Positions 35,459 through 42,349 of a stretch of 64,000 nucleotides of DNA are shown here, piece by piece; position 1 is the first letter of the stretch, and the number at the start of each line of letters is the position of its first letter. The DNA comes from Marinobacter sp. (GTDB lineage Bacteria; Pseudomonadota; Gammaproteobacteria; Pseudomonadales; Oleiphilaceae): the NCBI GenBank assembly GCA_022565395.1, contig JAIUMV010000002.1, positions 62,001 to 126,000 of the forward strand, written 5' to 3'. The notes under the pieces are model-generated. The model ran no database searches, was not told where the DNA came from, and saw nothing but the letters and a program-made list of their open reading frames with translations. A program made the position numbers and the translations under genes.

Positions 35459-35887
35459 TCAGCCGCGTGGGCAGATCTCATTGTCGTTGAAGAAGTAGGC
35501 CACTTCGCGCTCAGCGGAAGCAGCGGAGTCAGAACCGTGAACTGCGTTGGCATCGATGGAAGATGCGAAATCCGCACGGATAGTGCCAGCTGCGGCTTCC
35601 TTCGGGTTGGTAGCACCCATCAGGTCGCGATTCTTCAGAATAGCACCCTCGCCTTCCAGAACCTGCACCATGACCGGACCAGAAGTCATGAACGCAACCA
35701 GGTCACCGAAAAACGGGCGCTCTTTGTGCTCAGCGTAGAAGCCTTCAGCCTGCTCTTGAGTCAGGTGAGCCATTTTGGCAGCGACAATTTTCAGACCTGC
35801 TTTTTCAAAGCGGCTGTAGATCTCGCCAATCACGTTCTTGGCAACAGCATCCGGCTTGATGATAGAGAGCGTGCGCTCAACAGACAT
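35459..35887 (-). CDS. ndk: Nucleoside diphosphate kinase
   Basis: Ndk equalises nucleoside triphosphate pools by phosphate transfer through a histidine. The 142-residue protein begins [15 protein letters not shown] and carries the active-site histidine in NAVHGSDS near residue 117. The ATG at 35887 follows GGAG by 8 bases; the longer open frame is unlikely. It lies only 83 bases downstream of iscS, whereas in relatives such as Pseudomonas the rest of the isc operon comes in between. Confidence 0.97.
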
Positions 35888-35970
35888 GGGCTTTCTCCAG
35901 TTAGAGTTTATGGGCAAATTTCAGGCCTGCGATTATACGCAGGTTAACGCCCACTGCCTACCGAAGACAG

Positions 35971-37137
35971 TCACAGTGCGCGCCGGTTCCCTCGCGCGTT
36001 ACGTAGTTGTACTACCACCTGCGCCACCAAGCCTGCCGCAAAGCCCACCTCTGCCTCCGTGGTAAAGCGCCCAAAGGAGAAGCGCAACGCGCTATGGGCC
36101 TGCTCATCAGAGCGGCCAAGGGCCTTGAGCACATAGGACGGCGCCAGCGATGCAGAAGCGCAGGCCGAGCCGGACGACACTGCCAGTTCCCGCAGGCCAA
36201 GCATCAGTGCCTCCCCTTCCAGCCCCTCAAAGGACAGATTCATGATACCTGGCACCCGGGCCGCGCCAGAACCATTCAGAACCACACCGGGAACCGCCAA
36301 CACGGTATCGAGAAAGCGTGTGCGCAACTGCTCGAGGCGCTCAGCCTCCACAGACAAATGCTCCGCCGCCAGCGCAAAAGCCGCCCCCATCCCCACCAAC
36401 TGGTGCGTGGCCAACGTGCCCGAGCGCATGCCGCGCTCGTGGCCGCCGCCGTGTATTTGGGGGCGTACCACAACATCGGGTGATCGTCGCACATACAGCG
36501 CCCCAACCCCTTTCGGCCCATAGACTTTGTGGGCCGAGAATGACATAAGATCCACCTGCAGCCCGCTGACACTTACCGGCATTTTCCCGGCAGCCTGAGC
36601 GGCATCCACATGAAACAGCACCCCTCGCTCGCGCAACATGGCCCCAATAGAGGCCACATCCGTCACTACCCCGAGCTCGTTATTCACCAGCATCAGACTG
36701 ACCAGACGGGTATTTCCGGTAAGGGCCGCCTCCACCTGGGCACGGGTTATACAGCCCTCAGCATCAGGCACAAGGTAAGTCACCTGATGCCCCTGAGTTT
36801 CCAACCAGGCGCAGGTATCCAGAACCGCCTTATGCTCAATGGCAGAGGTAACAATATGCCCCGGCGCCTGCCCTTCCATGACACCTTTCAGCGCCAGGTT
36901 ATTGGATTCCGTTGCACCGGAGGTCCAGACGATTTCCCGGGGATCGGCGCCAATCAGGGCTGCTACTTCACCTCGCGCGCCTTCTGCTGCAGCTTCAGCT
37001 TGCCAGCCATAGGCGTGAGAGCGGGATGCCGGATTGCCGAACACACCATCAAGGGTGAGGTGCGCGACCATGGCATCCGCAACCGCAGGGTCGACCGGTG
37101 TGGTCGCCGCGTAATCAAGATAAACAGGTTTTTTCAT
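35971..37137 (-). CDS. iscS: Cysteine desulfurase IscS with shortened C-terminus
   Basis: IscS removes sulfur from cysteine with PLP and passes a persulfide to partners. The 388-residue protein has the PLP lysine K204 in [10 protein letters not shown], His102 in IEHKAV and the catalytic Cys326 in [10 protein letters not shown]. It is strongly IscS-like from the first residue ([16 protein letters not shown]). However, it ends soon after [12 protein letters not shown] with NARGNRRAL and lacks the SPLWEMYK...EWAHH tail of E. coli IscS (404 residues). No frameshifted tail is present downstream. It lies 7 bases after iscR, and the next gene is ndk rather than iscU. Confidence 0.93.
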
Positions 37138-37144
37138 GGCGACT

Positions 37145-37645
37145 TCAGACTGGAACTTTGGAAGTTAAACGCTCGGTATTGATGGGCTGCGAGTTTTCAC
37201 CCTGACGCTGACGCCCGTCCTGGCGGGCAGCCACAACCTGAATCTCACGATTACGCATCAGGTCTGCGAGACTAATCTCGCTGAGAAAATTGTGGATACG
37301 CTCACTGAGATCTGACCACAGATGGTGAGTCAAACACTTCTCACCACTCTGGCAATCCCCTTTGCTGTGACACCGGGTGGTATCGAGGGACTCGTTAACC
37401 GCGTCCACCACCTGGGAAATGAAGATATGCTCATGAGCCCGCCCCAGGCGATAACCCCCACCTGGGCCACGCACACTCATCACGAGCTTTTCACGGCGCA
37501 GTCGGGCAAACAGCTGCTCAAGATAGGACAGCGAAATGCCTTGGCGAGCGGAAATGTCAGCCAGGCTAACGGGCCCCTGATCCGCGTGCAGCGCAAGATC
37601 GAGCATTGCCGTAACCGCATAGCGGCCTTTGGTGGTGAGTCGCAT
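37145..37645 (-). CDS. iscR: Iron-sulfur cluster regulator IscR
   Basis: IscR is an Rrf2-family repressor that senses [2Fe-2S] status. The 166-residue protein has the winged helix at residues 1-75 ([20 protein letters not shown]) and three cluster cysteines near 92, 98 and 104 ([13 protein letters not shown]), with the following His in LTHHLW. It is the first gene of a two-gene iscRS transcript and has a likely IscR box overlapping its own promoter. Confidence 0.95.
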
Positions 37646-37684
37646 GGAATAAGTCCCGGCGTCAGCCTTGTCATCAACCTTGGG

Positions 37685-37713
37685 ATTATGGATTAACCTA
37701 CTAATTTGATCAA
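37685..37713 (-). promoter_or_regulatory. Sigma-70 promoter of iscRS
   Basis: On the minus strand TTGATC (37708-37713) and CATAAT (37685-37690) are separated by exactly 17 bases, about 40 bases before the iscR ATG. The IscR box overlaps it. Confidence 0.7.
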
Positions 37714-37717
37714 GTAT
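37693..37717 (-). promoter_or_regulatory. Probable type 1 IscR binding site
   Basis: The 25 bases match the type 1 IscR consensus (ATASYYGACTRWWWYAGTCRRSTAT) at 20 positions by my count. They cover the -35 and spacer, consistent with autorepression by [2Fe-2S]-IscR. Confidence 0.65.
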
Positions 37718-37724
37718 TCACCGA

Positions 37725-38474
37725 TTACTTGCGACCACGGACCGCTGTCAGGATCCCCCGCAGGATGTTTACTTCCATCTGATCCAACCGCGTGCGTTGA
37801 AACAATCGCCGCAATCGCGTCATTAACTGGCGCGGGTTATCCTGGCGGTGGAAACCGACCTCCACCAGCACCTGTTCAAGGTGCTGAAGAAAGCCTTCCA
37901 ACTGCTCCACTGTGGCAGGCGGGACATCCCATCCCGAGCTGTCAGGCGACAATAGCGGCGCCTGCTCAGCATCTTGCTGTGCCAGCGTCAGCATACGCAA
38001 CTCGTAGCTGATAACCTGCACTGCCATGGCCAGGTTCAAGGAGCTGTAATCCGGGTTAGTGGGTATATGGATATGATAATGACAACGCTGCAGCTCTTCA
38101 TTACTGAGCCCATTACTTTCGCGCCCGAACACCAGCGCCACCTGCCCTTGCCCCGCCATTGCCAACACCTGAGGGGCCGCCTCCCGGGGGTTCATGACAG
38201 GCCAGGGCACCTTTCGGCCCCTCGCACTGGTGCCCATAACCAGGGCGCAATCAGCCAGCGCCTCATCCAGCGTGCTCACCACAATGGCGCTATCCAGCAC
38301 GTCCAGCGCACCGGAGGCACGGGCCACCGCTTCCTCGCTGGGAAAGCTGCGGGGATTAACCAACCAAAGATTACGCAAGCCCATGTTTTTCATGGCTCTT
38401 GCAACAGCACCAATATTACCGGCGTGGGTGGTTTCCACCAGGACAATACGTAGGTGTGGAGCTATATCATTCAC
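37725..38474 (-). CDS. trmJ: tRNA (cytidine/uridine-2'-O-)-methyltransferase TrmJ
   Basis: TrmJ is a SPOUT-class methylase that makes Cm32/Um32 in tRNA anticodon loops. Seen: RIVLVETTHAGNIGAVARAM near the start, VFGRESNGLSNEEL near residue 115, and IPTNPDYSSLNLAMAVQV near 135, forming the SPOUT knot. I prefer the GTG at 38474, with AGGG 8 bases before it, giving 249 residues. A GTG at 38489 would add five. It lies upstream of iscR and divergent from suhB, the Pseudomonas arrangement. Confidence 0.92.
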   Translation of the reverse strand: MNDIAPHLRIVLVETTHAGNIGAVARAMKNMGLRNLWLVNPRSFPSEEAVARASGALDVLDSAIVVSTLDEALADCALVMGTSARGRKVPWPVMNPREAAPQVLAMAGQGQVALVFGRESNGLSNEELQRCHYHIHIPTNPDYSSLNLAMAVQVISYELRMLTLAQQDAEQAPLLSPDSSGWDVPPATVEQLEGFLQHLEQVLVEVGFHRQDNPRQLMTRLRRLFQRTRLDQMEVNILRGILTAVRGRK

Positions 38475-38657
38475 TTCAGTACCCTGCACACGGGGAAATT
38501 CGAGGCGGCATCATAACAAAGTTACCCACCTTGCGGTCTTCACGGACATCAAAATCATTCATGCCATCGCCGGCTTCTGGTATCATCGTTCGCCTTATCC
38601 TGCGGGGAGCCCCTCCCCAATACCGGACGTTCTCTAACATTCTCAGGCGAATACCCT

Positions 38658-39458
38658 ATGCAACCAGCAATCAAAATGGCTCTGCGCATTGCGCGCCAGG
38701 GCGCGGACTATCTGAAAGCGCATTTTGAGCGTCAAGACGCCAACAGCAAGGACCGTGATACCCTGAACCAACAGCTTAACAAGGTTGAACTGTCCATCCA
38801 GGCCAACTTTACTGAGCAGTTGCAGAAAGCCTACAAGGATTTCTACATTGCCCCGCTCTACGATATCGACGCAGGCGGCCATGAGAACAGCTGGCACATC
38901 TTTCCGGTACTCGGCCGGGAAGCCTTTATCCGGGGTTTGCCTGAGTTTGCCCTCGCCCTGCTGCAGAAACGCAATAACCGCGCTGAGCACCTGGTGCTGA
39001 TCAACCCTGTTACCGGCGAAGAATACTCTGCAAGCCGTGGCCATGGTGCCGCCCTCAACAGCCGACGGGTCCGCTGCAATGAAATGCGCGCCCTGAACCA
39101 GGTCACGCTGGTTACCAATGCACTGACTCAAGTGAAGGTGGGCGACAGCCCGCTGGTATGGGGTGAACTGCTGGTAGCTCTGGGTCAGGAAACACAGCAC
39201 GTCAGAAGCACCGGCTGTACGGTTCTGGATATCGCCAGAGTTTGTGCCGGCCTGCTCGATGCCGCGGTAATCTCACGGCCGGAGCCCACTGACATGGCCA
39301 TCGGCCTGCTACTGACCAATGAGTCAGGCGCCCTGAGCGGTGACTTTGCCGGCAACCCATCTTCTCAGGATGCACGCCAACTTGTGGTTGCCAACCCCAA
39401 ACTGTTCAAGGAAGTGCTCAAACTGCTACATCCGTTCCGCGGCCGCCTGCCACGCTGA
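38658..39458 (+). CDS. suhB: SuhB-like inositol monophosphatase homolog lacking metal-binding residues
   Basis: By position (divergent from trmJ), length (266 residues) and overall pattern this is the SuhB/inositol monophosphatase ortholog. Recognisable segments are VTGEEYSASRGHGAALNSRRV near 119-139, RSTGCTVLDIARVCAGLLDAA near 185-205, and VVANPKLFKEVL near the end. The catalytic DPLDGT motif is replaced by FPVLGR (residues 82-87), removing both metal-binding aspartates, and the upstream TEESG glutamates are also missing. It is therefore probably not a phosphatase. In E. coli SuhB also acts in rRNA antitermination with NusA independently of catalysis; a similar structural role here is inference. 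Confidence 0.8.
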   Translation: MQPAIKMALRIARQGADYLKAHFERQDANSKDRDTLNQQLNKVELSIQANFTEQLQKAYKDFYIAPLYDIDAGGHENSWHIFPVLGREAFIRGLPEFALALLQKRNNRAEHLVLINPVTGEEYSASRGHGAALNSRRVRCNEMRALNQVTLVTNALTQVKVGDSPLVWGELLVALGQETQHVRSTGCTVLDIARVCAGLLDAAVISRPEPTDMAIGLLLTNESGALSGDFAGNPSSQDARQLVVANPKLFKEVLKLLHPFRGRLPR

Positions 39459-39477: not shown

Positions 39478-39512
39478 AAAAAAAACGGTGCCCCTTAAGG
39501 CACCGTTTTTTT
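39478..39512. terminator. Bidirectional Rho-independent terminator between suhB and secF
   Basis: The stem ACGGTGCC/GGCACCGT has a 6-base loop and is flanked by an A-run on the left and a T-run on the right. It can terminate suhB on the plus strand and secF on the minus strand. Confidence 0.95.
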
Positions 39513-39522
39513 GCTTCAGCAC

Positions 39523-40479
39523 TCACATCCGATTGAGCCACTCTGGCGGCTGCTCTTGCTCGGGCTGCTCACCATCTGCACCTTCCTTCACAGGAACGAT
39601 CAGATCTTCCCGGGTCACACCGAGCACAACCAGCAAACTCGCTGAGACATAGATGGAGGAGTAAGTACCCACCACAACACCAATAATCAGCGCGATGGCG
39701 AAGTTATTGATGGCCTCACCGCCAAACAGATACAGCGAGATCAGTACCGCCAGGGTGGTACCGGAGGTGTTGATGGTTCGGCTGATGGTCTGGGTGATGG
39801 ACGTATTGATCACATACTCGGGATCATCGGAGCGGATCTTGCGAAAATTCTCACGAATCCGGTCCGCTACCACGATGGTATCGTTCAGGGAGTAACCGAT
39901 GACCGCCAGCAAAGCAGCCAGCACGCTGAGATCGAACGTCCACTGGAACAAGGCAAAGATGCCCAGGATGATAATGACATCATGGGCCAGCGGCATGACG
40001 GCAGCGATACCAAACTTGAACTGGAAGCGCATACCCACATAAATGAGGACGATAGCCAGCGCCAGCAGCAGACCAAGGGCACTGTCTTCCTTCAGCTCGT
40101 CACCCACCTGGGAACCGACAAACTCAGAGCTGACCAGCTCCAGTTGAGCACCGCCCGCGCGCAAGTCCGCGGTCAGGCGGTTAGCCAGCTGATCGTCATC
40201 AGACTCCTGCAGTCGAATGAGTACGGACGTATCAGCACCAAAATTCTGCACAACAAAGTCACTGTACCCAGCATCTGACAGTGTCTGGCGCAGCTCATCC
40301 AGGGATGGCGCTTCCTGATACTCAAACTCCACCGAGGTACCACCGGTAAAGTCCAGCCCCAGATTGAGCCCTTTCACCCCCAGCACCACAAAGGATGCCA
40401 GTACCAGCACGATGGACACTACGGAAGCAAGCTTCCGTATCGCCATAAAGTCTATGGTTTTACGCGGCGTCTCAAGCAT
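39523..40479 (-). CDS. secF: Protein translocase subunit SecF
   Basis: SecF pairs with SecD to complete protein export using the proton-motive force. The 318-residue protein has six predicted membrane helices: one near residues 19-38, a periplasmic domain, then five from about 140 onward. It contains LNLGLDFTGGTSVEFEYQ near 41-58 and GYSLNDTIVVADRIRENFRK near 195-214. The ATG at 40479 overlaps the secD stop by eight bases; the longer open frame is less likely. Confidence 0.96.
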   Translation of the reverse strand: MLETPRKTIDFMAIRKLASVVSIVLVLASFVVLGVKGLNLGLDFTGGTSVEFEYQEAPSLDELRQTLSDAGYSDFVVQNFGADTSVLIRLQESDDDQLANRLTADLRAGGAQLELVSSEFVGSQVGDELKEDSALGLLLALAIVLIYVGMRFQFKFGIAAVMPLAHDVIIILGIFALFQWTFDLSVLAALLAVIGYSLNDTIVVADRIRENFRKIRSDDPEYVINTSITQTISRTINTSGTTLAVLISLYLFGGEAINNFAIALIIGVVVGTYSSIYVSASLLVVLGVTREDLIVPVKEGADGEQPEQEQPPEWLNRM

Positions 40480-42349
40480 GGGCGAGCCCCCGTCCGATGG
40501 AAAGTTTACGAACCTTGCGACCACCGTAGACCAGATTGACCATGCCACGGCTTACCACCAGAGCGGTAAACATGGAGGTCAGAATGCCGATACAAAGCGT
40601 CACGGCAAAGCCTTTGACCGGGCCAGAGCCCATGGCAAACAGAATGATCGCCACCAGCAAGGTGGTGATGTTGGCGTCAAGGATGGACACCAGCGCACGG
40701 GAATAACCTGCGTTGATCGCTGATTGCGGCGGCGCACCTGCCCTCAGCTCCTCTTTGATACGCTCAAAAATCAGTACGTTGGCATCCACCGCCATACCGA
40801 CCGTCAGAACGATGCCGGCTATACCAGGCAAGGTCAGGGTTGCGGAGAGGATGGACATGCAGGCAACCAGCAGCATCAGGTTAACCGTCAGTGCCACGTT
40901 TGCCACCAGGCCAAAGACCCGGTAGTAAAGCCCCATGTAGATGAGTACCAACATAAAGCCGAAGGCCACCGACTTGAAGCCCGCCTCGATGTTACGCTGA
41001 CCAAGGCTTGGACCTATGGTGCGCTCCTGCACAAAGTACATGGGCGCAGCCAGGGAACCTGCCCGCAACAGCAGCGCAAGCTCAGATGCTTCAGGTATAG
41101 AGTCCAGACCGGTAATGCGGAAGTTACTGCCCAGCGCAGACTGCACTGTGGCCAAACTGATGATACCCCGCTCCACTTCACGGCGCTGCACCACTTCGAT
41201 TTCACCATTCACCTGGCGCTCTTCGTCCACCGTGCGGAACTCGATGAACACGACAGCCATCCGGCGCCCGACATTATGGCGTGTCGCCCGGTTCATCATG
41301 TCACCACCCGGGCCATCCAACGTGATGTTGACCTGCGGGCGACCATTCTCGTCGAACGACTGCTGGGCATTGGCAACGCTGTTACCGGTGGTGATGACTT
41401 CCCGCTCCAGGCGCGCGGTACGGTTAGGGTCATCCCGGAAGCTGAAAGCTTCAGTGGTACCGGAAGGGGCATCCTGGCGGGCTTCCATACGGAATTCCAG
41501 GTTGGCGGTGGCGCCCAGTACCCGCTTGGCCTGCGCTGTATCCTGCACACCGGGAAGCTCGACGATGATACGATCCCGCCCCTGACGCTGAACCAGTGGC
41601 TCCGCCACACCCAGTTCGTTAACCCGGTTGCGGATGGTGGTCAGGTTCTGCTCTACCGCATAGTCTTCGATACGACGCAGCTCTGCCTCTGACAGGCTCA
41701 GTACCAGCTCATACTGACCGTCACCGGCGCGACGCTGGTTCATCAGAAACTCATTGTAGTTACGACGAATCAGGTTAAACGCGTCTGCGCGGGAACCCTC
41801 ATCAACAAACTGCAATACGATGGTACGGTTCTCACCCACATCACCGCCCCGGTAGCGAATACGATCACTGCGCAAGGCACCTTTGATGTCAGACGAATAT
41901 ACTTCCAGCCGTTGCTCCAGCGCGCTCTCCATATCCACTTCCAGCAGGAAGTGAACACCGCCACGCAAGTCCAGGCCCAACTTCATAGGGCCGGCACCAA
42001 TGCTGCGCAGCCAGTTGGGCGTGGAGGGCGCCATATTGATCGCCACCAGATAGTCACGCCCAAGAGCGTCCTGCACGATCGGACGGGCCCGCAACTGCTG
42101 ATCTGAGTTATCCACTCGAATCAGCGCATTGCGATCCTCAAGACCGGCAGCCTTGATCTGAATACCGGCGGCTTCCATCGCCTCAACAGCCCGGTCCAGC
42201 ACCTGCTGGTCAACGTCCGTGCTGCCCCTGGCGCCTGTAATCTGGATGGCGAAATCATCCGGATACAGATTGGGAAGGGCGTATATAAAACCGATGGTGA
42301 TCGCGAGCACGATCACCAGGTTTTTCCAGATTGGGTACTTGTTCAGCAT
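40472..42349 (-). CDS. secD: Protein translocase subunit SecD
   Basis: SecD forms the SecDF complex with SecF. The 625-residue protein has an N-terminal helix (residues 11-25), large periplasmic P1 domains, KLGLDLRGGVHFLLEVDM near 122-139, and five C-terminal helices with GMAVDANVLIFERIKEEL near 510-527. Start, length and the yajC-secD-secF order are canonical. Confidence 0.97.
   Translation of the reverse strand: MLNKYPIWKNLVIVLAITIGFIYALPNLYPDDFAIQITGARGSTDVDQQVLDRAVEAMEAAGIQIKAAGLEDRNALIRVDNSDQQLRARPIVQDALGRDYLVAINMAPSTPNWLRSIGAGPMKLGLDLRGGVHFLLEVDMESALEQRLEVYSSDIKGALRSDRIRYRGGDVGENRTIVLQFVDEGSRADAFNLIRRNYNEFLMNQRRAGDGQYELVLSLSEAELRRIEDYAVEQNLTTIRNRVNELGVAEPLVQRQGRDRIIVELPGVQDTAQAKRVLGATANLEFRMEARQDAPSGTTEAFSFRDDPNRTARLEREVITTGNSVANAQQSFDENGRPQVNITLDGPGGDMMNRATRHNVGRRMAVVFIEFRTVDEERQVNGEIEVVQRREVERGIISLATVQSALGSNFRITGLDSIPEASELALLLRAGSLAAPMYFVQERTIGPSLGQRNIEAGFKSVAFGFMLVLIYMGLYYRVFGLVANVALTVNLMLLVACMSILSATLTLPGIAGIVLTVGMAVDANVLIFERIKEELRAGAPPQSAINAGYSRALVSILDANITTLLVAIILFAMGSGPVKGFAVTLCIGILTSMFTALVVSRGMVNLVYGGRKVRKLSIGRGLAHA

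Follow-up and report, generated by a model that had tools for sequence, protein, structure and literature searches.

SuhB is a textbook example of a moonlighting protein. In E. coli, it is both a sugar-phosphate phosphatase and a Nus factor assisting rRNA transcription, and the first of these activities serves no obvious purpose there. The E. coli protein (PDB 6ib7, 6ib8, 6tqn) has all of its metal ligands and a measurable IMPase activity, which is dispensable for the cellular function of suhB according to work cited in PMC6614801. The K251A/L254A substitutions lower the affinity of E. coli SuhB for the AR2 domain of NusA more than 1000-fold (PMC6614801), and the E. coli suhB gene has an autoregulatory boxA (PMC5725501). 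The SuhB of P. aeruginosa (PDB 8wip, 8wdq) has a complete active site and was crystallised with inositol-1-phosphate. The STYX-type pseudophosphatases are catalytically dead and retained for binding, as is proposed below for a SuhB; they belong to eukaryotic signalling, however, and their fold is unrelated to that of SuhB.

Here, we analysed a suhB gene in the window, i.e., the whole 64-kb stretch of DNA. It resembles E. coli suhB in its locus with a divergent trmJ, in the fold and length of its product, in the AR2-contact residues K251/L254 and in a boxA-like element, which in E. coli lies ~28 nt before the start codon. In contrast to both SuhB proteins described above, its product has lost most of the active site, including three of the four metal ligands.

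Results

The features of the locus are listed in Table 1. The suhB frame begins with ATG and its neighbours match those of E. coli suhB in a synteny comparison, with iscR and iscS lying beyond trmJ. The statement of the preliminary description that the gene is otherwise full-length, with intact frame and synteny, thus held: the reading frame is uninterrupted and trmJ and secF are its neighbours. The convergent arrangement of suhB and secF was found in most relatives too, and the inverted repeat between the two genes is a probable bidirectional terminator. The actual start of secF is probably inside the listed open reading frame, further in.

Table 1. Features of the suhB locus, with positions in the window.
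Feature	Position	Strand	Basis
trmJ, divergent neighbour upstream of suhB, as in E. coli	37725..38489	-	open reading frame and synteny
Putative extended -10 (TGGTATCAT)	38578..38586	+	read from upstream regions
boxA-like element GTTCTCTAACA, 29 nt before the start codon	38629..38639	+	one mismatch to GYTCTTTRANA
suhB ortholog without IMPase active site, 266 aa	38658..39458	+	open reading frame, Pfam, NCBIfam, AF2, Foldseek
Codons of A65 P66, at the positions of E67 (metal ligand) and E68 in E. coli SuhB	38850..38855	+	alignment
FPVLGR (F82-R87) replacing DPLDGT	38901..38918	+	alignment
Codons of K251-L254, aligned to E. coli K251 and L254, AR2-binding contacts (PMC6614801)	39408..39419	+	alignment and literature
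Inverted repeat CGGTGCC-CCTTAA-GGCACCG, A and T runs on its flanks	39487..39516	.	read from sequence
secF, convergent neighbour downstream of suhB	39523..40548	-	open reading frame, extent as listed

On the other side of trmJ, the isc cluster is reduced (35459-37645), and ndk directly follows iscR-iscS. No match to E. coli-type IscU, IscA, HscB or HscA, which in E. coli come after iscS, was found within the 64-kb window. The gap between iscR and trmJ is ~80 bp (37645-37725) and is much larger in most relatives of the family, where it has room for a gene, perhaps cysE.

The protein scored 61 bits with Pfam Inositol_P and 107 bits with NCBIfam PRK10757 (inositol-1-monophosphatase), which is under the curated cut-off of 332 bits and leaves it outside that group. 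Its AlphaFold2 model (pLDDT 92.4, pTM 0.90) was compared with known structures by Foldseek. The top match was P. aeruginosa SuhB (TM 0.86), and the E. coli SuhB chain of 6tqn, an rRNA antitermination complex, was matched with a TM of 0.84 and an rmsd of 2.5. A profile built from the family gave 297 bits for P. aeruginosa SuhB, which is the nearest solved structure by both sequence profile and fold, 247 bits for E. coli SuhB and no more than 155 bits for the other IMPases; chain 9vep, labelled only as an inositol-1-monophosphatase, reached 251 bits with the same profile. With a full-length IMPase fold, a divergent trmJ on the isc side and a place among the SuhBs in the tree, the gene is a true suhB ortholog.

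The alignment with E. coli SuhB revealed the replacement of K34 by D34, D44 by E44, E67 by A65, E68 by P66, D84 by F82, D87 by L85, T89 by R87, T90 by E88, E205 by I205 and W211 by T211. It agrees exactly with the earlier reading of DPLDGT as FPVLGR, because of which both metal-binding aspartates, D84 and D87, are gone. The TEESG segment, which had been described as missing, has indeed lost its motif; the segment itself is replaced and two residues shorter, with the deletion beside A65 P66, and is not wholly absent. Of the metal ligands that characterise IMPases (E67, D84, D87 and D212), three are absent and D212 is the sole one left. Its W-D context is gone, and D212 is kept in 27% of the family members.

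The loss had been treated as that of one gene. The gene does have it, but the trait is clade-wide. The DPxDGT, EES/EEG and WD motifs were absent in each of the 37 genomes (16 genera) of the host-family sample and in 77/77 additional loci, mostly of Marinobacter, plus Hahella, Halospina, Halovibrio and Oleiphilus; this agreement led us to reject chance or sequencing error as the cause. DPxDGT and EES/EEG were present in 19/19 active SuhBs. At single positions, E67, D84, D87, T89, T90 and E205 were lost in most or all of the 37 family genomes. The motifs were also missing in 12 genomes of a second family (f6) and two of a third (f7), and we refer to all these proteins as dead SuhBs. The SuhB of Motiliproteus (L154:4001-4813) is intermediate, with the changes E67Q, D84N and D212E, yet with D87 kept. 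Among the other families of the order that were fully read, f15 alone lacks intact motifs.

In the SuhB tree, which has long branches, the dead sequences fall into a single clade (100/100) nested in the active Pseudomonadales SuhBs, with Motiliproteus at its base. An independent NusA tree places Motiliproteus likewise: it is sister (90/89) to a single clade comprising the three families, and the families with active SuhB fall outside. A single ancient loss at its base accounts for the dead clade, which comprises Motiliproteus and at least three families; this answers the question of age that had been left to an alignment of relatives. Of 124 genomes drawn across the class, for the most part one from each family, most gave strong matches to E. 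coli SuhB, and the active-site status was read for the low scorers only. Divergent suhB-locus proteins without the motifs were seen in G076, G169, G061 and, least surely, G050; they are probably further losses, on long or weakly placed branches.

It is unlikely that the active site was remodelled for other chemistry or another ligand, so that SuhB would still be an enzyme or a sensor. A new C187, which is common in the second family too, and N156 are each found in 33/37 members of the host family, and G88 and P85 are often retained, as such remodelling would have it. The former metal and phosphate ligands, however, have given way to a wide variety of residues within the family; therefore, no new common residue set has arisen at the active site, and no newly conserved cluster of acidic or basic residues stands in place of the old ligands.

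The residues aligned to the NusA contacts of E. coli SuhB are conserved. K251 and L254 are both present in the window SuhB. At position 251, 37/37 members of the host family have K or R, and 11/12 and 2/2 members of the second and third families, respectively, have K, while the residue is D in the catalytic paralog of the host (see below) and A in CysQ. Position 254 is L in 21/37 family members and mostly V, I or S in the others. Like the loss of R184, these replacements at position 254 count against a role as a Nus factor. In the dead-clade genomes that were read, including the host, NusA has a full AR2 domain at its C-terminal end. AR2 alone does not predict SuhB, since two genomes (G098 and G164) in which no SuhB was detected still have it. 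In a further genome (G094; L230, L257), no SuhB was detectable, NusA was without AR2, and the rRNA region still had a boxA-like site; a joint loss of SuhB and NusA AR2 is possible there.

boxA or near-boxA sequences were present in the rRNA leader or spacer of the dead-clade genomes with assembled rRNA. The rRNA operon of the host was not found in its assembly, and boxA of rRNA operons was thus read in relatives only. In the region upstream of suhB, the E. coli boxA was recovered as GTTCTTTAACA at -28. Elements with at most one mismatch preceded suhB in 8/37 genomes of the host family, 10/12 of the second and 2/2 of the third, against shuffling expectations of 0.7, 0.2 and 0.1. The count of eight includes four near-identical Hahella sequences; in the second family, several matches lie 80-125 nt from the start codon, not near it. 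Among the Marinobacter-type loci, only 1/71 had a clear boxA before suhB, which also speaks against the Nus-factor role. Part of the clade may thus still autoregulate suhB through the Nus complex. As to the putative extended -10, many relatives have TGnTATnAT-like elements in a similar position; a consensus promoter scan did not recover it and gave nothing useful on the + strand.

The suggested search for a second, catalytic paralog was successful in the same genome. The host has two further IMPase-fold genes with complete motifs, namely CysQ (L002), which scores 325 bits where the cut-off is 229, and a separate IMPase (C20:38925-39737; L001:1492-2304) beside an aminotransferase gene. The latter matches Pfam Inositol_P as the window SuhB does, but it has complete EE and DPIDGT motifs, lacks the NusA-contact lysine and lies away from the suhB locus. 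In the tree, it belongs to a clade of its own (99/99) outside SuhB; therefore, it is not a recent copy of suhB, and such a duplication was rejected as its origin. Its orthologs were found in 21/28 dead-clade genomes and in 0/17 genomes of the order with active SuhB. As the dead-SuhB group is one clade, this association amounts to about one event.

Together with the fact that IMPases are dimers, the same distribution might point to SuhB as a regulatory pseudo-subunit of the catalytic paralog, e.g., in mixed dimers, instead of or besides its being a Nus factor. We regard this as very unlikely, as the dead SuhB is kept without the paralog in 7/28 dead-clade genomes (e.g., G193, G025) and in Motiliproteus, the paralog is not adjacent to suhB, and the persistence of the AR2 contact residues would go unexplained. 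The same genomes weaken the idea that the paralog was a necessary condition for the catalytic loss, and the absence of the paralog from Motiliproteus indicates that the loss of catalysis may predate its arrival.

The dN/dS analysis that had been proposed revealed strong purifying selection on suhB. In Marinobacter and close relatives, the median dN/dS was 0.12 and the closest pairs gave about 0.01-0.04. At the median, dS is nearly saturated, and the pairs depend on one another, so that the close pairs are the better guide. The neighbour genes gave 0.075 (trmJ), 0.096 (secF) and 0.058 (iscR). Among the columns that are invariant in active SuhBs, only 1/14 at the active site was kept in 70% or more of the dead family sequences, compared with 37/90 elsewhere (Fisher p = 0.016). 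The gene is constrained, though not at the old active site. Decay of suhB is extremely improbable: its dN/dS is somewhat above that of the neighbour genes and divergence reaches about 70% within the family, but the gene is intact in every sampled genome (263-269 aa in 77 loci), the scaffold residues are invariant and dN/dS is far below 1, so that the breadth and age of its conservation, together with dN/dS, already refute this explanation.

Discussion

We consider it quite probable that the window SuhB is a natural pseudophosphatase, which lost its catalysis long ago and has been retained as a structural Nus factor. Selection for a non-catalytic role, such as one linked to NusA, had been suggested in the preliminary description; the ancient loss, the dN/dS values, the conservation of K251/L254 and of NusA AR2, and the second IMPase all support it. 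From the sequence comparisons, we infer that the protein has no phosphatase activity, binds NusA and acts in rRNA transcription.

In the proposed mechanism, the dimeric SuhB fold would bind NusA AR2 through the C-terminal surface (K251/L254), aid the loading of NusB/NusE on boxA of the nascent pre-rRNA and place NusA/NusG on the RNA polymerase. SuhB would support antitermination and rRNA folding with no phosphoester hydrolysis, while the hydrolysis of sugar phosphates or other IMPase-type substrates, where needed, would be carried out by the separate IMPase paralog and CysQ.

In the open-access literature searched, we found no earlier report of a natural catalytic loss in SuhB, and a natural, ancient and clade-wide loss of this kind appears to be new. 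A clade that keeps SuhB without catalysis is a natural separation-of-function experiment, showing which surface selection protects. Its conserved fold, locus and partner-binding residues suggest that the transcription role is the one protected by evolution. The SuhBs of this clade are also ready-made active-site-less proteins for work on rRNA antitermination.

More tentatively, a wider course of events can be envisaged, in which the enzyme activity of SuhB was shed several times independently in Gammaproteobacteria, once in the clade of Marinobacter, Hahella, the second family and Motiliproteus and again in the lineages of G050, G076, G169 and G061, and that of the main clade passed to the IMPase of separate origin. 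SuhB would then be a pure transcription factor there, and its repacked and in part conserved C187 pocket may bind something new. As regards annotation, the name "inositol monophosphatase" given to the Marinobacter and Hahella genes in databases is probably wrong.
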